Positions 1,480-11,603 of a DNA stretch of 26,480 bases are shown in pieces (position 1 is the stretch's first letter; every line of letters begins with the position of its first letter). Under the pieces are notes generated by a model that worked only from the letters and a program-made list of their open reading frames with translations, did not search any database and was not told the origin of the DNA. The position numbers and the translations under genes are program-made. The DNA is taken from the IMG/VR virus record IMGVR_UViG_3300008266_000401, positions 1 through 26,480 of that record; one strand, 5' to 3'. This stretch comes from a virus.

Positions 1480-1491
1480 TATTTATAAATA
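1480..1491. promoter_or_regulatory. Palindromic divergent late promoter
   Basis: TATTTATAAATA is a perfect 12-bp palindrome. Read on the plus strand it contains TATAAATA (1484-1491), 7 bases before ATG 1499. Read on the minus strand it contains TATAAATA (1487 to 1480), 6 bases before ATG 1473. TATAAATA is the T4 late promoter -10 element, which needs no -35 box. One element therefore appears to drive two diverging operons. Confidence 0.8.
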
Positions 1492-1498
1492 ATTAAAT

Positions 1499-1828
1499 AT
1501 GAAATCTTTTAAACAATACATTATTGAAGAAGATGAAGAGAAGCCCAGTAGAATGGGCCACTTGATTAAAATTGGAACCAAGATGCAAGATGCAGATTTT
1601 TGGATCACTCGCAGAGGTTCGATTGACAAAATTGGGCATCCATCGAAAGAATATAATCCAGAACACTTTGGTGTGAAAGTGACAAGAACAGATGTTCTAG
1701 ATCCTCGCTATGCTTATTACATGTTTCAACATTTGGCAACCTCTGGTCATTTTCGTCAATTCGCCAAAGGTGCTACAAATTTGGTGAATATAAAAGCAAA
1801 TCATATTACGGATATACCAATCAAATGA
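1499..1828 (+). CDS. Capsid-targeted protein with HsdS-like target-recognition half-domain (109 aa)
   Basis: Residues 1-10, MKSFKQYIIE, fit the T4 internal-protein targeting peptide with cleavage predicted after I8-I9-E10. The body has the pattern of a type I restriction specificity-subunit recognition domain: WITRRGSIDKIG (35-46), a DPRYAYYMFQHL stretch (68-79) like the HsdS YLYYYL segment, and KGATNLVNIKANHITDIPI (90-108), matching the usual ending in G-[ST]-x(n)-I-x(3)-[DN]-[IL]-x(2)-[IL]-P-[IL]. At 109 residues it is only about half of one HsdS repeat. It is first in the plus-strand cargo operon and overlaps the next gene by 4 nt. An anti-restriction role by mimicking the S subunit is inferred. 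The S-subunit match was made by eye. Confidence 0.6.
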   Translation: MKSFKQYIIEEDEEKPSRMGHLIKIGTKMQDADFWITRRGSIDKIGHPSKEYNPEHFGVKVTRTDVLDPRYAYYMFQHLATSGHFRQFAKGATNLVNIKANHITDIPIK

Positions 1829-2256
1829 AATCTTTTAAGAAATATATTTTTGAAAATTCTAAACCGAATTATAGTGGTGTTGTACTGACACCAAAAAGTA
1901 GAGAATTGTTACTCTCCCATCCAGAAATATCATCAAGATTATCAAAGCAGGGTCTTGAGAAAATTGGTCATCATATGACAATCAAAATGGGTGGTTTAGC
2001 AGGCACTGAGCATAAAACAGGAACTGCTGCCACTCTAACAGCCACACACATTGGTCATCTCGGTGATTCTGACAATCCTTCAGTCGTTGCGGTGAGAGTA
2101 TCAGGGCATCCATCTGAAAATAAAACACCACACATTACTCTTGGTGTGAATCGTGAACTTGGTGGAAAACCATTCCATTCAAACAAAATAGAAAATTGGC
2201 AAGCTTTATCAGAACCAATTGAGTTGTCTGGAGAAGTTCAGGAGATTTTTAAATGA
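1825..2256 (+). CDS. Capsid-targeted 2H phosphoesterase-like protein (143 aa)
   Basis: Leader MKSFKKYIFE (1-10) predicts prohead-protease cleavage before N11. The body carries two HxT motifs, H50-M51-T52 in GHHMTIKMG and H103-I104-T105 in PHITLGVN, each in a beta-strand-like setting. This is the signature of 2H phosphoesterases, which act on 2',3'-cyclic or 2'-5' phosphodiester bonds. The length matches small members of the superfamily. T4 Acb1, which destroys the cyclic nucleotides of CBASS defence, belongs to the same superfamily and has about 150 residues. The following stretch GGKPFHSNKIENWQ is typical of some 2H relatives. An injected enzyme that degrades a signalling nucleotide or repairs or cleaves RNA is inferred; the substrate cannot be read from sequence. 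Confidence 0.7.
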   Translation: MKSFKKYIFENSKPNYSGVVLTPKSRELLLSHPEISSRLSKQGLEKIGHHMTIKMGGLAGTEHKTGTAATLTATHIGHLGDSDNPSVVAVRVSGHPSENKTPHITLGVNRELGGKPFHSNKIENWQALSEPIELSGEVQEIFK

Positions 2257-2588
2257 AATCATTTAAAGAACATTTAAATAAACAATTGATAAATGAAATT
2301 GGAGATACTCCAATGGGTCGGCAAATGCTGGCAAGGTATGCTGGTAAAGCGCAAAAGTTCATAGATCAGGCGGCATCAAGAGCCTTTAAAATGTATGACA
2401 GAGCACAGATCATGCAAGATGCTAAAAGAAAAGAGGGATTGCTAAATATAGGTGCTGGTGAGATTAGAAGTAATAGGTATGGGAATAGAGTGCGTGGATT
2501 GTTTGCAGCAAAAAAAATTCTAAAAGGCGCACCTCCAGAAGAGGTTCCAGAATTAAATAAATTGTACAGACAAGAAAGAGGAGAATGA
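2253..2588 (+). CDS. Putative capsid-targeted basic protein (111 aa)
   Basis: It starts MKSFKEHLNKQLINEIG, with a candidate cleavage site after I13-N14-E15, five residues later than in most neighbours. The phrase QLINEIG followed by D/E-T recurs in the 4334-4684 protein, so the two leaders are related. The body is helical and basic (GRQMLARYAGKAQKFID, then a long Lys/Arg-rich stretch), with no Cys and no membrane segment. I do not recognise a fold. DNA association inside the head is plausible from the charge and from the T4 internal-protein precedent. Both ends overlap neighbouring genes by 4 nt. Confidence 0.65.
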   Translation: MKSFKEHLNKQLINEIGDTPMGRQMLARYAGKAQKFIDQAASRAFKMYDRAQIMQDAKRKEGLLNIGAGEIRSNRYGNRVRGLFAAKKILKGAPPEEVPELNKLYRQERGE

Positions 2589-3376
2589 AATCATTTAAGC
2601 AATACATCTCCGAGGATATAATTGGTGGATATGATCCAAATTATATCTACAGAGAAAATTTAGGTCCAAAAAAAATAAAATCTTTAGACCAGTTGGTTAA
2701 GAAGATTGGTGTAAACTATGATCTTGATAATTTGAACAGCACCCGTGTTGATTTAAATGATCAATATCATATTCGTTATGTGAAATACAAGTCGAAGGGT
2801 GATGACAGAACACCACCTAGAGATTTATTGGCGGTTCATGTTTTCTCCAGTGCCCCAGGGCATGAAAGAACTGCTCTGGCAGAATATAAACTGTCCCACG
2901 ATCCAAATAATGTTGTGAAGACTTCCGATGGTAGAGAGATAAAAATGTTTAGTGGAAGTCCTGAGAAAGTAAGAAGAGATACCAAGCGTGGAGTTTTTTC
3001 TTTACCAAAAAATATATTACACACCATAGCAAACTCAACTGGATATGGAATCATGAGCGGATTCAGTCAAACAAAGGGTGGAACAGAACTTTGGAGAAAG
3101 GCCGTGAGACATGGACATGAGTCTGGACATCATGTGAGTAGAATGTATCAATTTAGCAAAAGAAATCCAGAAACCAGAAAAATTTCCAGTGAATGGAAAG
3201 TTGTTGGAAAATCGACACCAAGAACATTCCAAGATGCATATACTGGTGATGTTTCTTTAAGAAAAACTGGAAATAAATCAAGAATTCCAAAAAGAGATTT
3301 CGATCTTCCACCAGAGAAAAATGTTTATGATACCGTTACTAGACTTTATACACACCTTGGAATTTTACCAAAATGA
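2585..3376 (+). CDS. Putative capsid-targeted protein, largest of the island (263 aa)
   Basis: Leader MKSFKQYISE (1-10) predicts cleavage before D11. This is the largest cargo candidate and the most likely to be an enzyme. Residues 79-102 (RDLLAVHVFSSAPGHERTALAEYK) look like beta strands of a folded domain. The GFSQTKGGTELWRK stretch (159-172) resembles a motif I associate with phage proteins sometimes labelled acetyltransferase-like. HESGH at 178-182 formally fits the HExxH metalloprotease pattern, but its surroundings are polar and Gly-rich, so I do not rely on it. The C-terminus is basic. The function is unknown; the leader and operon position suggest packaging and injection. Confidence 0.65.
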   Translation: MKSFKQYISEDIIGGYDPNYIYRENLGPKKIKSLDQLVKKIGVNYDLDNLNSTRVDLNDQYHIRYVKYKSKGDDRTPPRDLLAVHVFSSAPGHERTALAEYKLSHDPNNVVKTSDGREIKMFSGSPEKVRRDTKRGVFSLPKNILHTIANSTGYGIMSGFSQTKGGTELWRKAVRHGHESGHHVSRMYQFSKRNPETRKISSEWKVVGKSTPRTFQDAYTGDVSLRKTGNKSRIPKRDFDLPPEKNVYDTVTRLYTHLGILPK

Positions 3377-3843
3377 AATCTTTCAAACAGATCATATCAG
3401 AAGCAAGACCAACTGGTCAAAAAAGATATTCTAGAGATACTGAAAAACTAGAAAAACTTTTAGATAAATTGTATTCCTCTGGAGTCAGTCAGAAAAAAAT
3501 AGACAGGGCAGAAATGCGCTTGGCTCGTAGAACAAATGACAATGAATACGATGTTGAGGATGAGTTGAGAAAACTTCCGTCGAATCTTGCACATGATGAC
3601 CATTCACCACCAGCAGAATCAGTTGAAGAATTGATGAGAAATGCTGCTAGAAAAATGTATACTGATGGTCATTCACATGAAATGGTTGGACAAAGTATAC
3701 GAGCAAGTATGGGAGATTTTTTACATTATCCAGTAGACATTCAACCAAATGTCACAAATAAAGAATTAGGTATGGAAGCTGAAAAAATGCTAGGTTCAAG
3801 AATAAATTTAATCAATAAAATAAAAGGGAAGAAAAATAAATGA
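3373..3843 (+). CDS. Putative capsid-targeted protein (156 aa)
   Basis: MKSFKQIISE (1-10) followed by A11 is the closest match in the island to the T4 leader MKTYQEFIAEA, including Ala after the cut. The body begins basic (RPTGQKRYSRDTEKLEKLLDKL), then has an acidic/His stretch (AHDDHSPPAESVEELM), a predicted helical segment around ARKMYTDGHSHEMVGQSI and a Lys-rich end. No catalytic motif is recognised. It overlaps both neighbours by 4 nt, so its translation is probably coupled to theirs. Confidence 0.65.
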   Translation: MKSFKQIISEARPTGQKRYSRDTEKLEKLLDKLYSSGVSQKKIDRAEMRLARRTNDNEYDVEDELRKLPSNLAHDDHSPPAESVEELMRNAARKMYTDGHSHEMVGQSIRASMGDFLHYPVDIQPNVTNKELGMEAEKMLGSRINLINKIKGKKNK

Positions 3844-4337
3844 ATTTATTTGAATCTGGTGGTAAAAAAATTCTTGGAGTTAATGCTCTCCAAACCAACG
3901 ACAGGGATGTTGTCAGAGCAATACGAAGATATCGCAATCATCTACATTTGGTAGCTGGAATGAAACATTGGAAAGTTCTAGATCAAAATAGAAATATTAT
4001 TCAAATTTTTCCAATGGGTTCAATTGGACCAAAAGCTGCAATCGGCACTTTGACTAAAGTTAGAAATTATCTTGAAAGTATTGGTCAATACACAAGACAA
4101 AAAGGCGAGTCTGGGGGAGTTACTGACTACAGACAAAATCAACAAGTTGAAAAACAACCACAAAAGCAAACAGTAAGTCCATTAAAAAGAACCGAAGAAA
4201 AAATAAAAAAATATGTGGAGTTGGTTAGAAAACCAACGATGGGAGCTGCAAAAAGGGCAAGACTTTCAAAAGCAATAGATAGATTAAAAGAAAATATAAG
4301 AACAAATTTAATAAATAAAGAAAAGAAGACTCAATGA
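3840..4337 (+). CDS. Basic protein of the cargo operon with atypical N-terminus (165 aa)
   Basis: The N-terminus MNLFESGGKK lacks the usual leader, although L3-F4-E5 followed by S is a minimal I/L-x-E site. Residues about 24-60 (VVRAIRRYRNHLHLVAGMKHWKVLDQNRNIIQIFPMG) look like a small alpha/beta domain, distantly reminiscent of HicA-type double-stranded-RNA-binding folds; this is only an impression. The C-terminal half is Gln-rich, then strongly Lys/Arg-rich and helical. Start and stop overlap neighbours by 4 nt. It may be packaged like its neighbours, but the evidence is operon position and charge rather than a clear leader. Confidence 0.55.
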   Translation: MNLFESGGKKILGVNALQTNDRDVVRAIRRYRNHLHLVAGMKHWKVLDQNRNIIQIFPMGSIGPKAAIGTLTKVRNYLESIGQYTRQKGESGGVTDYRQNQQVEKQPQKQTVSPLKRTEEKIKKYVELVRKPTMGAAKRARLSKAIDRLKENIRTNLINKEKKTQ

Positions 4338-4684
4338 AAAACTTTAAAAATTTCATAACCGAAAATCAATTAATAAATGAAATTGGTGAAACATCTGCTG
4401 GATTAGAAAAACTTCAAAAATTAAATAAAAGGTTATACGATAGGGCAACTTTTTACAATAAAAGAATTGGTAAAATAAAAAATCAAATTTCTGATATTTC
4501 TTCTGAAGTTCCAATGGTTGCCTCAGTATCACCATCTGAAGCTTTGGGTATGGTAGAAAAAATGAAAAGACTTAGAGATATAATGTCTGGTGATGAGGAA
4601 AGTTTTGATAGAGCAGCATCTAGATTTAAAAGATTTGAAAAAAATATAAATTTAATGATCAAAAGAAGAAAAGAATCAACTTAA
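4334..4684 (+). CDS. Putative capsid-targeted helical protein (116 aa)
   Basis: Leader MKNFKNFITE (1-10) gives a predicted cut before N11. A second site, I14-N15-E16, lies in the QLINEIGET phrase shared with the 2253-2588 protein. The rest is almost entirely predicted helix with heptad-like hydrophobic spacing (LEKLQKLNKRLYDRATFYNKRIGKIKNQI) and a basic end (FKRFEKNINLMIKRRK). No enzyme motif is present. It overlaps the preceding gene by 4 nt and is followed by a 17-nt gap, one of the few non-overlapping junctions in the island. Confidence 0.65.
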   Translation: MKNFKNFITENQLINEIGETSAGLEKLQKLNKRLYDRATFYNKRIGKIKNQISDISSEVPMVASVSPSEALGMVEKMKRLRDIMSGDEESFDRAASRFKRFEKNINLMIKRRKEST

Positions 4685-4701: not shown

Positions 4702-4908
4702 ATGAATGATAAAGTAAAAATGTATAAAAACATACTAACCAATAGAATTTTACAAAATGAAAGCAACATTGAAGATCTGGCAAGAGCAAATAGAAAGGCA
4801 ACTGGCAAACCAGATACTGGTCCATCAAAAAGAGCAGCGGCACTTGCAAGATTAAAATCTGAAATAGAAGCAGCAAAAAATAAAGAAGAACAAAAAGATA
4901 AAAAATGA
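4702..4908 (+). CDS. Small basic protein of the cargo operon (68 aa)
   Basis: The protein reads MNDKVKMYKNILTNRILQNES and continues as a Lys/Ala/Glu-rich helix ending in KNKEEQKDKK. It has no exact leader: the LQNE stretch places Gln rather than Leu three residues before the cut. The upstream AGAGAATTAAAATG has a weak purine run as a possible ribosome site. Its stop overlaps the next ATG by 4 nt, which supports real translation. The function is unknown. It may be packaged by piggybacking or act as a nucleic-acid-binding peptide; both are inferences from charge and neighbours. Confidence 0.5.
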   Translation: MNDKVKMYKNILTNRILQNESNIEDLARANRKATGKPDTGPSKRAAALARLKSEIEAAKNKEEQKDKK

Positions 4909-5444
4909 AATCTTTTTTAAATTTTATTCTTGAAGGTGAAGCAAAACTGAATAGGCTTTACATTGCTAAAGATTATGGTCGTAATCGTAGTAAAGAAGCT
5001 ACTGCTAAATTATTGTCAAGAATAGATAAAGAAGAAAAAAAAGTATTAGCAAAGCAATTGCTGCGTGGTGCTAAATACGGCAGAATAAGAAAAATAAATC
5101 CAGAAATTTTTAAAAATGTTCAAAAATCTAATATAGATTTTTGGAAATTTGGTCCTAGAACCAGAGAGCAGGAATCTTGGGAAAAAAGAAAAGAAATCTC
5201 AAGGGGAATTCGGGCTGGACAAATACAAATTGAAATGGAAAGACTTTATCCGTCATTGGTAAGTGCAGAGCAAGAAGCCCATAGAATCAGCACATCAAAT
5301 CCAAGATTTTCATACTCCAAGCAACCAAGGCTTAGAGTAATTAGAAGTATGTACAATAAATATTCTAAGGCTCTAATGAATCTTGGTATTGCAAAAAGAG
5401 AAGATCCACCAAGTATTGATCCACCAGAAGAGCAATTTTCATGA
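4905..5444 (+). CDS. Putative capsid-targeted basic protein (179 aa)
   Basis: Leader MKSFLNFILE (1-10) fits the targeting pattern, with cleavage predicted before G11. The body is strongly basic and helical in the first half (LSRIDKEEKKVLAKQLLRGAKYGRIRK). An aromatic patch follows (IDFWKFGPRTREQESWEKR), and the end is Pro/acidic (EDPPSIDPPEEQFS). No catalytic motif or known domain is seen. The body resembles a DNA-binding internal head protein more than an enzyme. Both ends overlap their neighbours by 4 nt. Confidence 0.6.
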   Translation: MKSFLNFILEGEAKLNRLYIAKDYGRNRSKEATAKLLSRIDKEEKKVLAKQLLRGAKYGRIRKINPEIFKNVQKSNIDFWKFGPRTREQESWEKRKEISRGIRAGQIQIEMERLYPSLVSAEQEAHRISTSNPRFSYSKQPRLRVIRSMYNKYSKALMNLGIAKREDPPSIDPPEEQFS

Positions 5445-5681: not shown

Positions 5682-6272
5682 ATGAAAACTTTCAAAAGCT
5701 ATCTTTTAGAATATTTATTAAAAAATACACAAGATGATTTTGATCCAGGTGCTTATACTGCCGATCAAATTTTAAAAGCTTATTCTAAACCTTTTGAATA
5801 TAAAACAGAAAAACACAAATACACATTCAAAAATTTCGGTCATGCCATGTCTTCGTATGTTGGTGCTGATCATGTTAGAAAATATTTAACATTTGTTGAT
5901 GAAAATTCAACCGACAGTCATGATCAGATCGACAGAGAACATTCTGATTTTGAAAAAGCACTACGAGAACATCATGATTCAATTATTGACAATTTAAGTA
6001 AAACTGATCCTATTGTTAATAAAACTATAAAAAAAATAAATGATTCTGGTATAAACTTTAAAAGTAATAATTTTAAAGGTTCAAAAGAAGACGCATCAAA
6101 GTTTATGATTAAAAAACTTGAGGCAAAGTATATGAAGAATCCAGAAACTTACGATGAAACTTTAATGCATTTTTCAAGAAAAGCAAGAGAAAATCATGAA
6201 AGTCATCCATTAAGTCACATATTTTCTGGAGTTGCAGATCCAGAATATGCTGCAATAAAGACAAAAATTTAA
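5682..6272 (+). CDS. Putative capsid-targeted protein, last gene of the first cargo block (196 aa)
   Basis: The start at ATG 5682 is chosen because it gives the leader MKTFKSYLLE, with a predicted cut before Y11, and follows the previous stop by one base; the frame extends upstream only inside the preceding gene. The body is rich in His, Asp, Lys and Ser, with repeated HxxxH-like spacing (DSHDQIDREHSDFEKALREHHDSIIDN and ENHESHPLSHIFSG), predicted to be mainly helical. The His-rich helices could bind metal, but no family is recognised. It converges with the HNH gene, overlapping its end by 4 nt. Confidence 0.6.
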   Translation: MKTFKSYLLEYLLKNTQDDFDPGAYTADQILKAYSKPFEYKTEKHKYTFKNFGHAMSSYVGADHVRKYLTFVDENSTDSHDQIDREHSDFEKALREHHDSIIDNLSKTDPIVNKTIKKINDSGINFKSNNFKGSKEDASKFMIKKLEAKYMKNPETYDETLMHFSRKARENHESHPLSHIFSGVADPEYAAIKTKI

Positions 6273-6712
6273 TATTTTAGTGGAACTGGCTGATTCAGAA
6301 GAAACATCTTTGCCTCTTCTGGTGTTCTGTTGCCCTTTTTTCGATTACATCTTAAGCAACAAGATGTGACATTCTTCCATTCATGCTTACCACCCCTAGA
6401 TCTTGGAATTATATGATCTATCGTGCAATTTTCCTTTGTCAATTCACAGCCACAGTATTGGCACATGTAATCGTCTCTTCTTAGAATATTTTTTCTAGAA
6501 GGACTAAATTCTTTATATGGAATATAAACATATTTCTTTAATACAATATGTTTTGGCAATTTGAATATTCCACTGGTAGTTTGGATATCGATAAATTCTT
6601 CTTCGGTGCATGGACTCACTTTACCATTGAGTACCAAACACACCGCTTTTTTCCAATCAATTTCGAATATCTTCTCGTAAGATACATTATAAAGATTAAC
6701 TACTAAATTCAT
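6269..6712 (-). CDS. HNH endonuclease (147 aa)
   Basis: The classic free-standing HNH architecture is present: an N-terminal strand-rich half (residues 1-65), then C84-x-x-C87, D99-H100 in CTIDHIIPRSRGG, N114 and C119-x-x-C122-N123, ending NRKKGNRTPEEAKM. The paired Cys bind structural zinc and the D-H/N residues form the metal-dependent nicking or cutting site. The start at 6712 is chosen because the family begins at this point (MNLVVNLYNVSYEK) and a TAAATA box lies 5 nt upstream on this strand; a 9-residue longer frame exists. The gene is inserted head-on against the cargo genes, as expected for a homing-type mobile gene. A role in DNA packaging or host-DNA degradation is also possible. Confidence 0.9.
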   Translation of the reverse strand: MNLVVNLYNVSYEKIFEIDWKKAVCLVLNGKVSPCTEEEFIDIQTTSGIFKLPKHIVLKKYVYIPYKEFSPSRKNILRRDDYMCQYCGCELTKENCTIDHIIPRSRGGKHEWKNVTSCCLRCNRKKGNRTPEEAKMFLLNQPVPLKY

Positions 6713-6788: not shown

Positions 6789-6796
6789 TATAAATA
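6789..6796 (+). promoter_or_regulatory. T4-type late promoter for the second cargo block
   Basis: An exact TATAAATA box ends 5 bases before ATG 6802. There is no -35 box, as expected for T4 late promoters. The transcript would start at or inside the start codon, so it would be leaderless or nearly so. Confidence 0.75.
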
Positions 6797-6801
6797 TAAT
6801 T

Positions 6802-7014
6802 ATGGGCATAATAGAAAATACAAATAAAAAATTCAATGAAAATGAAAAATATTATTTTGCCTCTTATATAAATTCTGAAGGATATGTTTTTGAATTGTTA
6901 TTAACTGAAAAAGAATTTGACAAAGCAGTCAAAAGGGCTGAAAAGAATCCAGAAGATATTCCGAACGAATATATAGTACTACAAGGATATAAAGGAAAAA
7001 AGGTAGAAAAATGA
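6802..7014 (+). CDS. Small conserved phage protein, paralogue of the 10935 gene (70 aa)
   Basis: The start at ATG 6802 is chosen because it follows the late box directly; the longer frame would begin upstream of the promoter. Residues about 17-45 read YYFASYINSEGYVFELLLTEKE and continue FDKAVKRAEKNPEDIP. This matches the 10935-11147 protein (LYF...LLFTEKEIVKASKRI), so the two are paralogues. The LTEKE-x(2)-KA-x-KRA-x-x-NPED ending is common in small phage proteins of unknown function. It overlaps the following leader-bearing gene by 4 nt. Confidence 0.65.
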   Translation: MGIIENTNKKFNENEKYYFASYINSEGYVFELLLTEKEFDKAVKRAEKNPEDIPNEYIVLQGYKGKKVEK

Positions 7015-7232
7015 AAAATTTCAAAGAACTATTTGAAGAAATAATGTCCAAAAGCGGAAGGGAAGTTTCCGATACCGAAAGAACTAGAGATAGAACAAGA
7101 AGATCTATTGGAATCAGGGTCACTAAAGGCTCCCGTGGAAATGTTCAGGATCTCTTAAAAAGTGGTAGAAAGAAATCAATAAAGGGTAAGTCAGTACATA
7201 AGCGTAAGAAGAATGTATTCAAGAAAAGATAA
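7011..7232 (+). CDS. Putative capsid-targeted very basic protein (73 aa)
   Basis: The leader MKNFKELFE places L7-F8-E9 before E10, one residue earlier than usual. The body is strongly basic and probably disordered, with an Arg-rich stretch (TERTRDRTRRSIGIRVTKG) and a Lys-rich end. This composition is expected of a DNA-condensing or DNA-bound internal head peptide. No domain is recognised. It overlaps the preceding gene by 4 nt and the next by 20 nt in another frame. Confidence 0.55.
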   Translation: MKNFKELFEEIMSKSGREVSDTERTRDRTRRSIGIRVTKGSRGNVQDLLKSGRKKSIKGKSVHKRKKNVFKKR

Positions 7233-7697: not shown

Positions 7698-7712
7698 AGT
7701 CTTCCTTTTTTT
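7686..7712 (+). terminator. Intrinsic terminator overlapping a stop codon
   Basis: GGAAGACTTTAAAGTCTTCC (7686-7705) is a perfect 20-base palindrome, forming an 8-bp stem with loop TTAA, followed by seven T. The stem includes the TAA stop of the 54-residue gene. The last T of the run is the first base of the next late promoter. Confidence 0.9.
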
Positions 7713-7719
7713 ATAAATA
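7712..7719 (+). promoter_or_regulatory. T4-type late promoter abutting a terminator
   Basis: An exact TATAAATA lies immediately after the terminator U-tract and 5 bases before ATG 7725. It restarts late transcription for the last two leader-bearing genes, with a predicted leaderless message. Confidence 0.75.
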
Positions 7720-7724
7720 TTTCT

Positions 7725-8213
7725 ATGTTACATTTTAAAGAATATATTTTAGAGCAAAGAAAAAATCTAATAGCTTTATCGCCAGGGGCTTTGAGGGCTG
7801 GTGTTAAATCTGCTGTAACTGGAAAAGATCCAAGACTAGAAAGACTTATATACAGTAGAGCTAGTAAAAGTAATCCAAAGGGTTGGATTAGACTTATAAC
7901 GAAAAAACCATCTGGTGAAGTTGAAAACCTAGGTGATACCCCTAGAGTTAAATCGGAACAGCCGAGAGCAGAGAAAACGATTGCATCAACTGAAAGATTG
8001 ACACCAGAACAAGAAATTTTACAAACTCCAGGGTTCCAAGTAGTAGAACCATCAGCAGAACAATTGGCTAAAGATGAGGAGAGGGGAATAGTAGATTTAA
8101 ATAAAATTGTAGATAGAAGAAAATTTAATTATCTACTTCATAAACAAGGTATAGATCCCTATTTTGCACGATTAAGAGTTAGAATAGCAAAGCAAAGATT
8201 GGGTAAAAAATGA
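7725..8213 (+). CDS. Putative capsid-targeted protein (162 aa)
   Basis: Leader MLHFKEYILE (1-10) gives a predicted cut before Q11. Position 2 departs from the usual Lys but the F-K-x-Y-I-L-E core is intact. The body starts with a Gly/Ala-rich stretch (LSPGALRAGVKSAVTGKD) and continues basic. A Pro/Glu-rich linker follows at about 65-115, and the end is Arg/Lys-rich and helical (DRRKFNYLLHKQ, RLRVRIAKQRLGKK). The arrangement of two basic ends around an acidic linker suggests two nucleic-acid-contacting parts. No known family is recognised. It overlaps the next gene by 4 nt. Confidence 0.6.
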   Translation: MLHFKEYILEQRKNLIALSPGALRAGVKSAVTGKDPRLERLIYSRASKSNPKGWIRLITKKPSGEVENLGDTPRVKSEQPRAEKTIASTERLTPEQEILQTPGFQVVEPSAEQLAKDEERGIVDLNKIVDRRKFNYLLHKQGIDPYFARLRVRIAKQRLGKK

Positions 8214-8368
8214 AAAACTTTAAAGTGTTGCTAGAAACTATAGTTAAGAGAAATGGAAGTTTTTTATTGATGAGTAAAAAGGGAAAAGTTTTAGGAAAGC
8301 ATGAATCAGAAGCAAAGGCTAGAAAACAAGAAGCCGCCATCAAGATAAGTACTGGTGAGTGGAAGTAA
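8210..8368 (+). CDS. Very short capsid-targeted protein (52 aa)
   Basis: The gene starts in the ATGA overlap with the previous stop and ends at TAA 8366-8368. The leader MKNFKVLLE has L7-L8-E9 before T10. The body, about 43 residues, reads GSFLLMSKKGKVLGKHESEA followed by KARKQEAAIK. This is like a small beta-hairpin-plus-helix unit that I have seen repeated in other phage proteins (a G-R/K-V-L-G-K-x-x-S motif). It is the shortest leader-bearing gene in the island and is easily missed by length cut-offs. The function is unknown. Confidence 0.6.
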   Translation: MKNFKVLLETIVKRNGSFLLMSKKGKVLGKHESEAKARKQEAAIKISTGEWK

Positions 8369-9459: not shown

Positions 9460-9729
9460 ATGACAAATACTAATTCGAAGAAGCGTCGTGTTCTAAATTA
9501 TCTTTCAAATGGTCGCGGTATCACCGCAGCCGAGGCTCGTAGTCGTTTTGGCGTGAAGAATCTTCGCGCTATGATGAGCGACATTCGTGAGACTGTTGAG
9601 CGTTATGGCAACTTTGAGGTTGCTACCGAGGAAACTCGTAATGGAAATTATCGTTATTACATTCGTAATACGAACACTCGTTCGCGTTCGCGCAACCTGA
9701 ACGAGATGCTTGATCTTGTTGATGCGTGA
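9460..9729 (+). CDS. Winged-helix DNA-binding protein (89 aa)
   Basis: ATG 9460 (MTNTNSKKRRVLNYLSNG) is chosen; the frame is open further upstream only across the tRNA-like element. Residues 7-60 follow a compact phage winged-helix pattern: K-x-x-V-L-x-x-L-x-x-G-x-x-I-T-x-x-E-A-x-x-x-F-G-V-x-N-L-R-A-x-x-S-D-I-R, then a wing NYRYYI (HTH_39-like). It probably binds DNA as a small regulator. Every Arg codon is CGN and none is AGA/AGG, unlike the late genes, suggesting either adaptation for high early expression or a separate origin. It shares the upstream promoter with the tRNA-like element; a hairpin (9400-9425) lies in its leader and a strong terminator follows. Confidence 0.8.
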   Translation: MTNTNSKKRRVLNYLSNGRGITAAEARSRFGVKNLRAMMSDIRETVERYGNFEVATEETRNGNYRYYIRNTNTRSRSRNLNEMLDLVDA

Positions 9730-10391: not shown

Positions 10392-10466
10392 GCGCCGTGG
10401 GAGGTCTTGGTTACCTCAGCCCGACTTATAATCGGGTAAGACTAGGTTCGAATCCTAGACGGCGTA
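10392..10466 (+). tRNA. tRNA-Ile(UAU)
   Basis: Acceptor GCGCCGT pairs with ACGGCGT (one G-U at the end). The D stem is GAGG/CCTC, the loop contains GG, and the anticodon stem CCCGA/TCGGG has loop CTTATAA, giving anticodon TAT (10427-10429), which reads AUA. The T arm CTAGG-TTCGAAT-CCTAG is canonical and the discriminator is A; CCA is not encoded. One extra base lies between the D and anticodon stems and can form a G-U pair extending the anticodon stem. AUA is frequent in the late genes of this AT-rich phage, so a decoding-supplement role fits. Confidence 0.85.
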
Positions 10467-11504: not shown

Positions 11505-11514
11505 AGCGTGTCAT

Positions 11515-11588
11515 ATCCCTGTAGCTCAGTTGGATAGAGCACTTGCCTTCTAAGCAAGTGGTCAGAGGTTCGAATCCTCTCAGGGATG
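11515..11588 (+). tRNA. tRNA-Arg(UCU)
   Basis: A fully canonical 74-nt cloverleaf: acceptor ATCCCTG/CAGGGAT, D stem GCTC/GAGC with GG in the loop, anticodon stem CTTGC/GCAAG with loop CTTCTAA and anticodon TCT (11549-11551). The variable loop is TGGTC, the T arm AGAGG-TTCGAAT-CCTCT and the discriminator G. CCA is not encoded. It reads AGA, the main Arg codon of the late and cargo genes here, whereas several early genes use CGN. Confidence 0.95.
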
Positions 11589-11603
11589 TTTTTAAGGAGA
11601 ACT

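Follow-up and report, generated by a model that had tools for sequence, protein, structure and literature searches.

Among the proteins that phage T4 is known to inject, Alt modifies the host RNA polymerase and IPI blocks restriction of DNA. These two, together with IPII and IPIII, carry a short N-terminal capsid-targeting leader with an L/I-x-E cut site on otherwise unrelated cargo; residues 4 and 7 of the leader matter most for targeting and residues 8 and 10 for processing, and the prohead protease gp21 cuts after L/I-x-E (PMC9026906). None of the T4 internal proteins named in the cited review is a 2H phosphodiesterase.

Enzymes of the 2H superfamily have been described in other settings. 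The small phage protein Acb1 (57B of T4) has an HxT/HxT tetrad (H44, T46, H113, T115; PMC9117128). In the sections of a jumbo-phage review drawn on here, 2H phosphoesterases have a predicted part in RNA repair, the removal of 2',3'-cyclic ends, and are not described as capsid-targeted (PMC7824862). Outside phages, fungal tRNA ligase (Trl1) contains a 2H CPDase domain (PF08302, structure 6u05), while vertebrate CNPase, an animal membrane-associated enzyme whose catalytic domain of about 210 residues lies behind a PNK-like domain, is thought to descend from RNA healing enzymes (PMC5434554).

Here we analyzed a stretch of 26,480 nt (the window) from a virus read as marine T4-like, in which a 2H gene lies within a cassette of leader-bearing genes larger than the T4 set (11 leader genes). 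We consider it probable that this gene encodes a capsid-packaged 2',3'-cyclic phosphodiesterase of the CNPase/fungal tRNA ligase type, healing RNA ends after injection. In a literature search with thin coverage of subscription journals and preprints, none of the titles and abstracts returned described a 2H enzyme targeted to the capsid.

The 2H gene and its conserved active site

The gene (1825-2256, + strand) has an ATG start and encodes 143 aa; overlaps of 4 nt (ATGA) join it to the preceding ORF (1499-1828) and to the next one (2253-2588). Its 2H phosphoesterase domain, of the CNPase/tRNA-ligase-CPDase type, spans residues 16-143 (1870-2253, +) and includes a first catalytic motif H50-M-T52 (1972-1980, +), a second one H103-I-T105 (2131-2139, +) and a family-specific motif K-P-F-H-S-N-K-I at residues 115-122 (2167-2190, +). 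A scan of public viral contigs yielded more than 80 loci of this family, a number that includes repeats of the same contig. When 65 distinct family domains were aligned, H50 and T52 of the first motif, T105 of the second, S119 and N120 were invariant (65/65), with H103, K115 and P116 each present in 64/65, so that the KPxxSNK motif is nearly invariant as well. Such conservation indicates that the HxT pair is a conserved active site and not a chance occurrence, and it bears out, together with the modeled fold described below, the view of the earlier note that the two motifs mark a 2H phosphoesterase. A scan of genome contigs with one degenerate pattern, a weak test, gave a single weak bacterial locus; the family thus looks mainly viral.

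Fold and position among 2H enzymes

An AlphaFold2 model built with 51 aligned relatives displayed a 2H fold with high confidence (mean pLDDT 95.1, pTM 0.87), the leader forming a helix of lower confidence. The earlier note had staked its assignment on a two-lobed 2H barrel; the model has the 2H fold, and its top structural matches are 2H enzymes. The best 38 PDB matches found by Foldseek were all CNPase catalytic domains or equivalents, and with a second structural aligner the closest solved fold was that of CNPase, whose catalytic domain superimposes on 124 residues of the model at an rmsd of 2.0 A (Z about 13, about 19% identity); the fungal tRNA-ligase kinase-CPDase 6u05 came next (Z 10.9), while among the matches listed all other 2H enzymes, Acb1 included, scored Z <=7.0. 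By its model, therefore, the window protein has a fold nearest to CNPase and Trl1 CPDase among 2H enzymes. Among viral structure models, the top matches include a giant-virus RNA ligase.

These relationships were found by fold comparison alone, since searches of PDB sequences with phmmer and with the family profile returned no true relative of the window protein; NCBIfam and PADLOC searches gave nothing useful for it. At the family level, PF08302 (tRNA_lig_CPD) was matched by 49 of 52 members (E up to 0.1; best 1.7e-10), and some relatives exceed the gathering score (up to 1.3e-7), whereas the window protein alone stays under the cut-off (E 0.02). It thus shares with Trl1 CPDase the 2H fold, the HxT pair, the Pfam match of its family and, in its relatives, the kinase-CPDase order, but it consists of one minimal domain (~130 residues) behind a capsid leader, stands alone and has no ligase seen alongside; from CNPase it differs in domain size, in domain arrangement and in the membrane association of the animal enzyme.

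The earlier note had referred the protein to the superfamily of T4 Acb1 and suggested a pre-loaded anti-CBASS function. Membership of that superfamily stands, given the fold and the shared HxT/HxT tetrad, and Acb1 appears among the weaker structural matches to the model; moreover, in T4 itself acb1 (57B) directly adjoins the internal-protein gene ipI (L115, 92-911; NC_000866.4, 73591-74410). Acb1 as the closest functional relative did not withstand the comparison, however: Acb1 (7t26) superimposes with Z 6.9 and an rmsd of 4.7 A over 112 residues, far behind CNPase and 6u05, profile comparison with T4 Acb1 (hhalign) reaches a probability of 19.8%, BLASTP aligns only 15 residues around HIT, T4 Acb1 contains nothing that corresponds to the KPxxSNK motif, and the gene context is different, the fusions and operons of the relatives pointing to RNA end healing. 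That the capsid is pre-loaded with an Acb1-like enzyme for the cleavage of cyclic di- and trinucleotides therefore seems quite unlikely to us.

Fusions and operons of the relatives

Domain architecture appears to be the strongest clue as to which 2H family is involved. In eight tree representatives the 2H domain is C-terminal to a P-loop kinase domain, which was AAA_33 in the four that were scanned (4/4); one such fusion, searched against PDB sequences, had T4 polynucleotide kinase as its sole match, a weak one (E 0.013). In some other relatives the 2H domain follows a PolyA_pol/tRNA nucleotidyltransferase domain of the CCA-adding type. Five of seven kinase-fusion contigs encode an Rnl1 RNA ligase on the strand of the fusion, 0.5-2.3 kb downstream of it, and in two of these loci (L085 and L089) a single small ORF separates the ligase from the kinase-2H fusion. 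Kinase, CPDase and ligase make up the healing-and-sealing set of yeast tRNA ligase.

Of note, the fusions of CCA-adding-enzyme-like and 2H domains, seen in phage loci L072, L077, L080, L058 and L055 (the 2H domain being N-terminal in L055), represent an unusual tRNA end-processing combination. A 185-kb contig (G015, locus L049) holds three RNA_ligase (PF09414) matches and a 2H relative.

Neither an Rnl1- nor an Rnl2-type RNA ligase turned up in contigs that encode leader-bearing relatives (up to 186 kb in length, possibly incomplete), RtcB was not found in 12 contigs, including six of leader-bearing relatives, and no AAA_33 kinase was found in the window. In the leader-bearing loci, phage proteins alone may therefore not suffice for complete repair; healing may need host enzymes or phage genes beyond the contig ends, or the enzyme may instead act on small cyclic nucleotides. 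Moreover, since the RNA-repair context comes from leaderless homologues, the function of the leader-bearing proteins may have shifted.

An alternative to the healing of RNA ends, in which the injected enzyme removes small nucleotides (2',3'-cyclic or ADP-ribose cyclic-phosphate ones) that serve as signals or arise from RNA decay, would agree with the lack of an RNA ligase in those contigs and with the Nudix hydrolases found among other leader-bearing cargo. In the portions of the literature drawn on here, 2',3'-cyclic mononucleotides and 2',3'-cNADP+ are in vitro substrates of CNPase-type enzymes (PMC4643303, PMC5434554), and for jumbo-phage 2H enzymes a role against signals with a 2',3'-cyclic phosphate has been put forward besides their part in repair (PMC7824862). 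We nevertheless regard this reading as somewhat unlikely, because the recurrent partners of the family (polynucleotide-kinase-like, CCA-adding and RNA ligase proteins) act on RNA.

The predicted capsid-targeting leader and its cassette

The window protein starts with a predicted capsid-targeting sequence, MKSFKKYIFE (residues 1-10; 1825-1854, +), with a predicted prohead-protease cut after E10 (I-F-E). It agrees with the key positions of IPIII, having aromatic residues at 4 and 7, I at 8 and E at 10; the N-terminus of T4 IPI is MKTFKEF. The earlier note had also proposed a capsid-targeting leader, and this prediction gains from the fact that the leader follows the T4 rules and recurs on other ORFs of the cassette.

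We scored a leader when an ORF had both the head M[KLN][STNHL]F[KL] and an L/I-x-E site ending at residues 8-16. Head and site were both present in 10 of the 20 cassette ORFs located before 8.4 kb, while within-protein shuffles gave a mean of 0.003 and none of 5000 reached 10; none of the 21 ORFs in the rest of the window had both. A scan from every ATG of the window raised the count to 11, the additional one being a 52-aa ORF starting at 8210. Once the leader is removed the cassette proteins show no significant mutual similarity (best pair 14 residues, E 0.095), which means that a common leader is carried by unrelated cargo.

All of these ORFs lie on the + strand. The 2H gene is preceded by MKSFKQYIIE (1499-1828), conserved in sister cassettes, and followed by MKSFKEHLNKQLINE (2253-2588), by MKSFKQYISE (2585-3376), which displays 44-57% identity in four sister contigs and whose AlphaFold2 model reached a pLDDT of 46, and by MKSFKQIISE (3373-3843). 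Further downstream are MKNFKNFITE (4334-4684), MKSFLNFILE (4905-5444), MKTFKSYLLE (5682-6272), MKNFKELFE (7011-7232), MLHFKEYILE (7725-8213) and the small 52-aa ORF with MKNFKVLLE (8210-8368), similar to a small ORF at 9611 in sister contig L101.

A gene for an HNH endonuclease (6269-6712, -) interrupts the cassette on the opposite strand, and similar ORFs occur at matching places in L101 and L103. Genes for tRNA-Ile (anticodon tat, 10392-10466) and tRNA-Arg (anticodon tct, 11514-11589) are located near the cassette. The gp32 of the window phage is closest to cyanophage gp32 (about 50% identity).

Late-promoter-like elements

A predicted T4-type late promoter element, TATAAATA, is located at 1484-1491 (+), separated by 7 nt from the start codon of the first cassette gene (ATG at 1499), and its mirror at 1480-1487 (-) would serve the divergent ORF 1036-1473. 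Overall, TATAAATA is found 5-7 nt ahead of the ATG in four window ORFs (1484-1499, 1473-1487, 6789-6802 and 7712-7725), two of which carry the full leader; the one at 7712 belongs to the MLHFKEYILE gene. In sister phage L101, two leader genes have the same arrangement, TATAAATA-5 nt-ATG, at their start. Seven sites were counted in the window against 4.1 expected, with no clear overall enrichment, so that the case for late promoters rests on their spacing to the ATGs. This spacing to leader genes fits late expression and suggests that the elements may be T4-type late promoters whose transcripts would have little or no 5' leader.

Sister cassettes and recurrence of predicted packaging

In four sister contigs (L101-L104) the cassette recurs, but part of its cargo differs and includes one leader-bearing Nudix hydrolase, and the 2H gene is absent from all sister contigs examined that bear this cassette, indicating that cargo is swapped and that the 2H gene is a dispensable part of it. 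No gp21-type prohead protease was found in the 26 kb window; a Peptidase_S77 of this type is encoded in sister contig G024 and in G007, the contig of the leader-bearing 2H locus L043.

A different leader, MKLLxENWRxYLxE, is shared by the genes of tandem cassettes that include a 2H gene in five other loci: L034 (4578-9054), L042 (5076-11865), L043 (2644-10321), L048 (396-6150) and L051 (2847-8639). In L036 a similar leader is found on the 2H gene, and in L042 a leader-bearing AAA_33 kinase comes directly after the leader-bearing 2H gene. Pfam matches among the unrelated cargo of these cassettes are to Nudix hydrolases, to a guanylate-kinase-like protein and, weakly, to a protein kinase; inspection by eye added HAD-like and ADP-ribosyltransferase-like sequences. 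The cassette proteins are candidates for injection and for action on the bacterial host.

The tree of the 2H family, in which L006 is labelled as leader-bearing, needs three leader changes, and its starred branches force two of them; hence the 2H domain was put behind capsid leaders more than once. Predicted packaging of 2H enzymes would accordingly have been acquired at least twice, with different leaders, as far as can be judged from sequence. The N-terminus of L006, MNFKQFCE, was not counted as a leader, having no L/I-x-E near residue 10 and neighbours without leaders.

Most relatives have no leader and are presumably cytoplasmic, and the window protein could likewise be an ordinary cytoplasmic 2H enzyme, either unpackaged or with a leader that acts in assembly or scaffold binding and has nothing to do with injection. 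This we hold to be very unlikely, given that the leader agrees with the targeting and processing positions of IPIII (PMC9026906), that it is common to unrelated proteins of one cassette and that 2H genes joined such cassettes, marked by different leaders, on at least two occasions.

Proposed role and implications

If the window protein is indeed a packaged RNA-end-healing phosphodiesterase, it would be made late in infection and drawn by the MKSFKKYIFE leader into the prohead core, where a gp21-like protease would probably cut after E10 and free the enzyme. Present in the virion, it would then be injected together with the phage DNA, and it may open the 2',3'-cyclic phosphate ends left on tRNA or other RNA cut by defence ribonucleases, such as anticodon nucleases. 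The end-healing step of RNA repair would thus be on hand ahead of any phage gene expression, to the possible benefit of the phage.

More tentatively, several T4-like phage lineages might independently package RNA-end-healing enzymes, namely the 2H phosphodiesterase and, in L042, the adjacent leader-bearing polynucleotide-kinase-like protein, such that RNA that fast-acting ribonuclease defences have cut could be healed by the injected enzymes before phage genes are expressed.

An injected RNA-repair enzyme, if true, would widen the idea of injected proteins to RNA-cleaving defences that halt translation early, and would explain how such defences may be countered prior to any phage protein synthesis. 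Moreover, the leader module, which several lineages carry on dozens of ORFs that are for the most part unrelated, makes it possible to search marine T4-like phages directly by sequence for proteins that may be injected.
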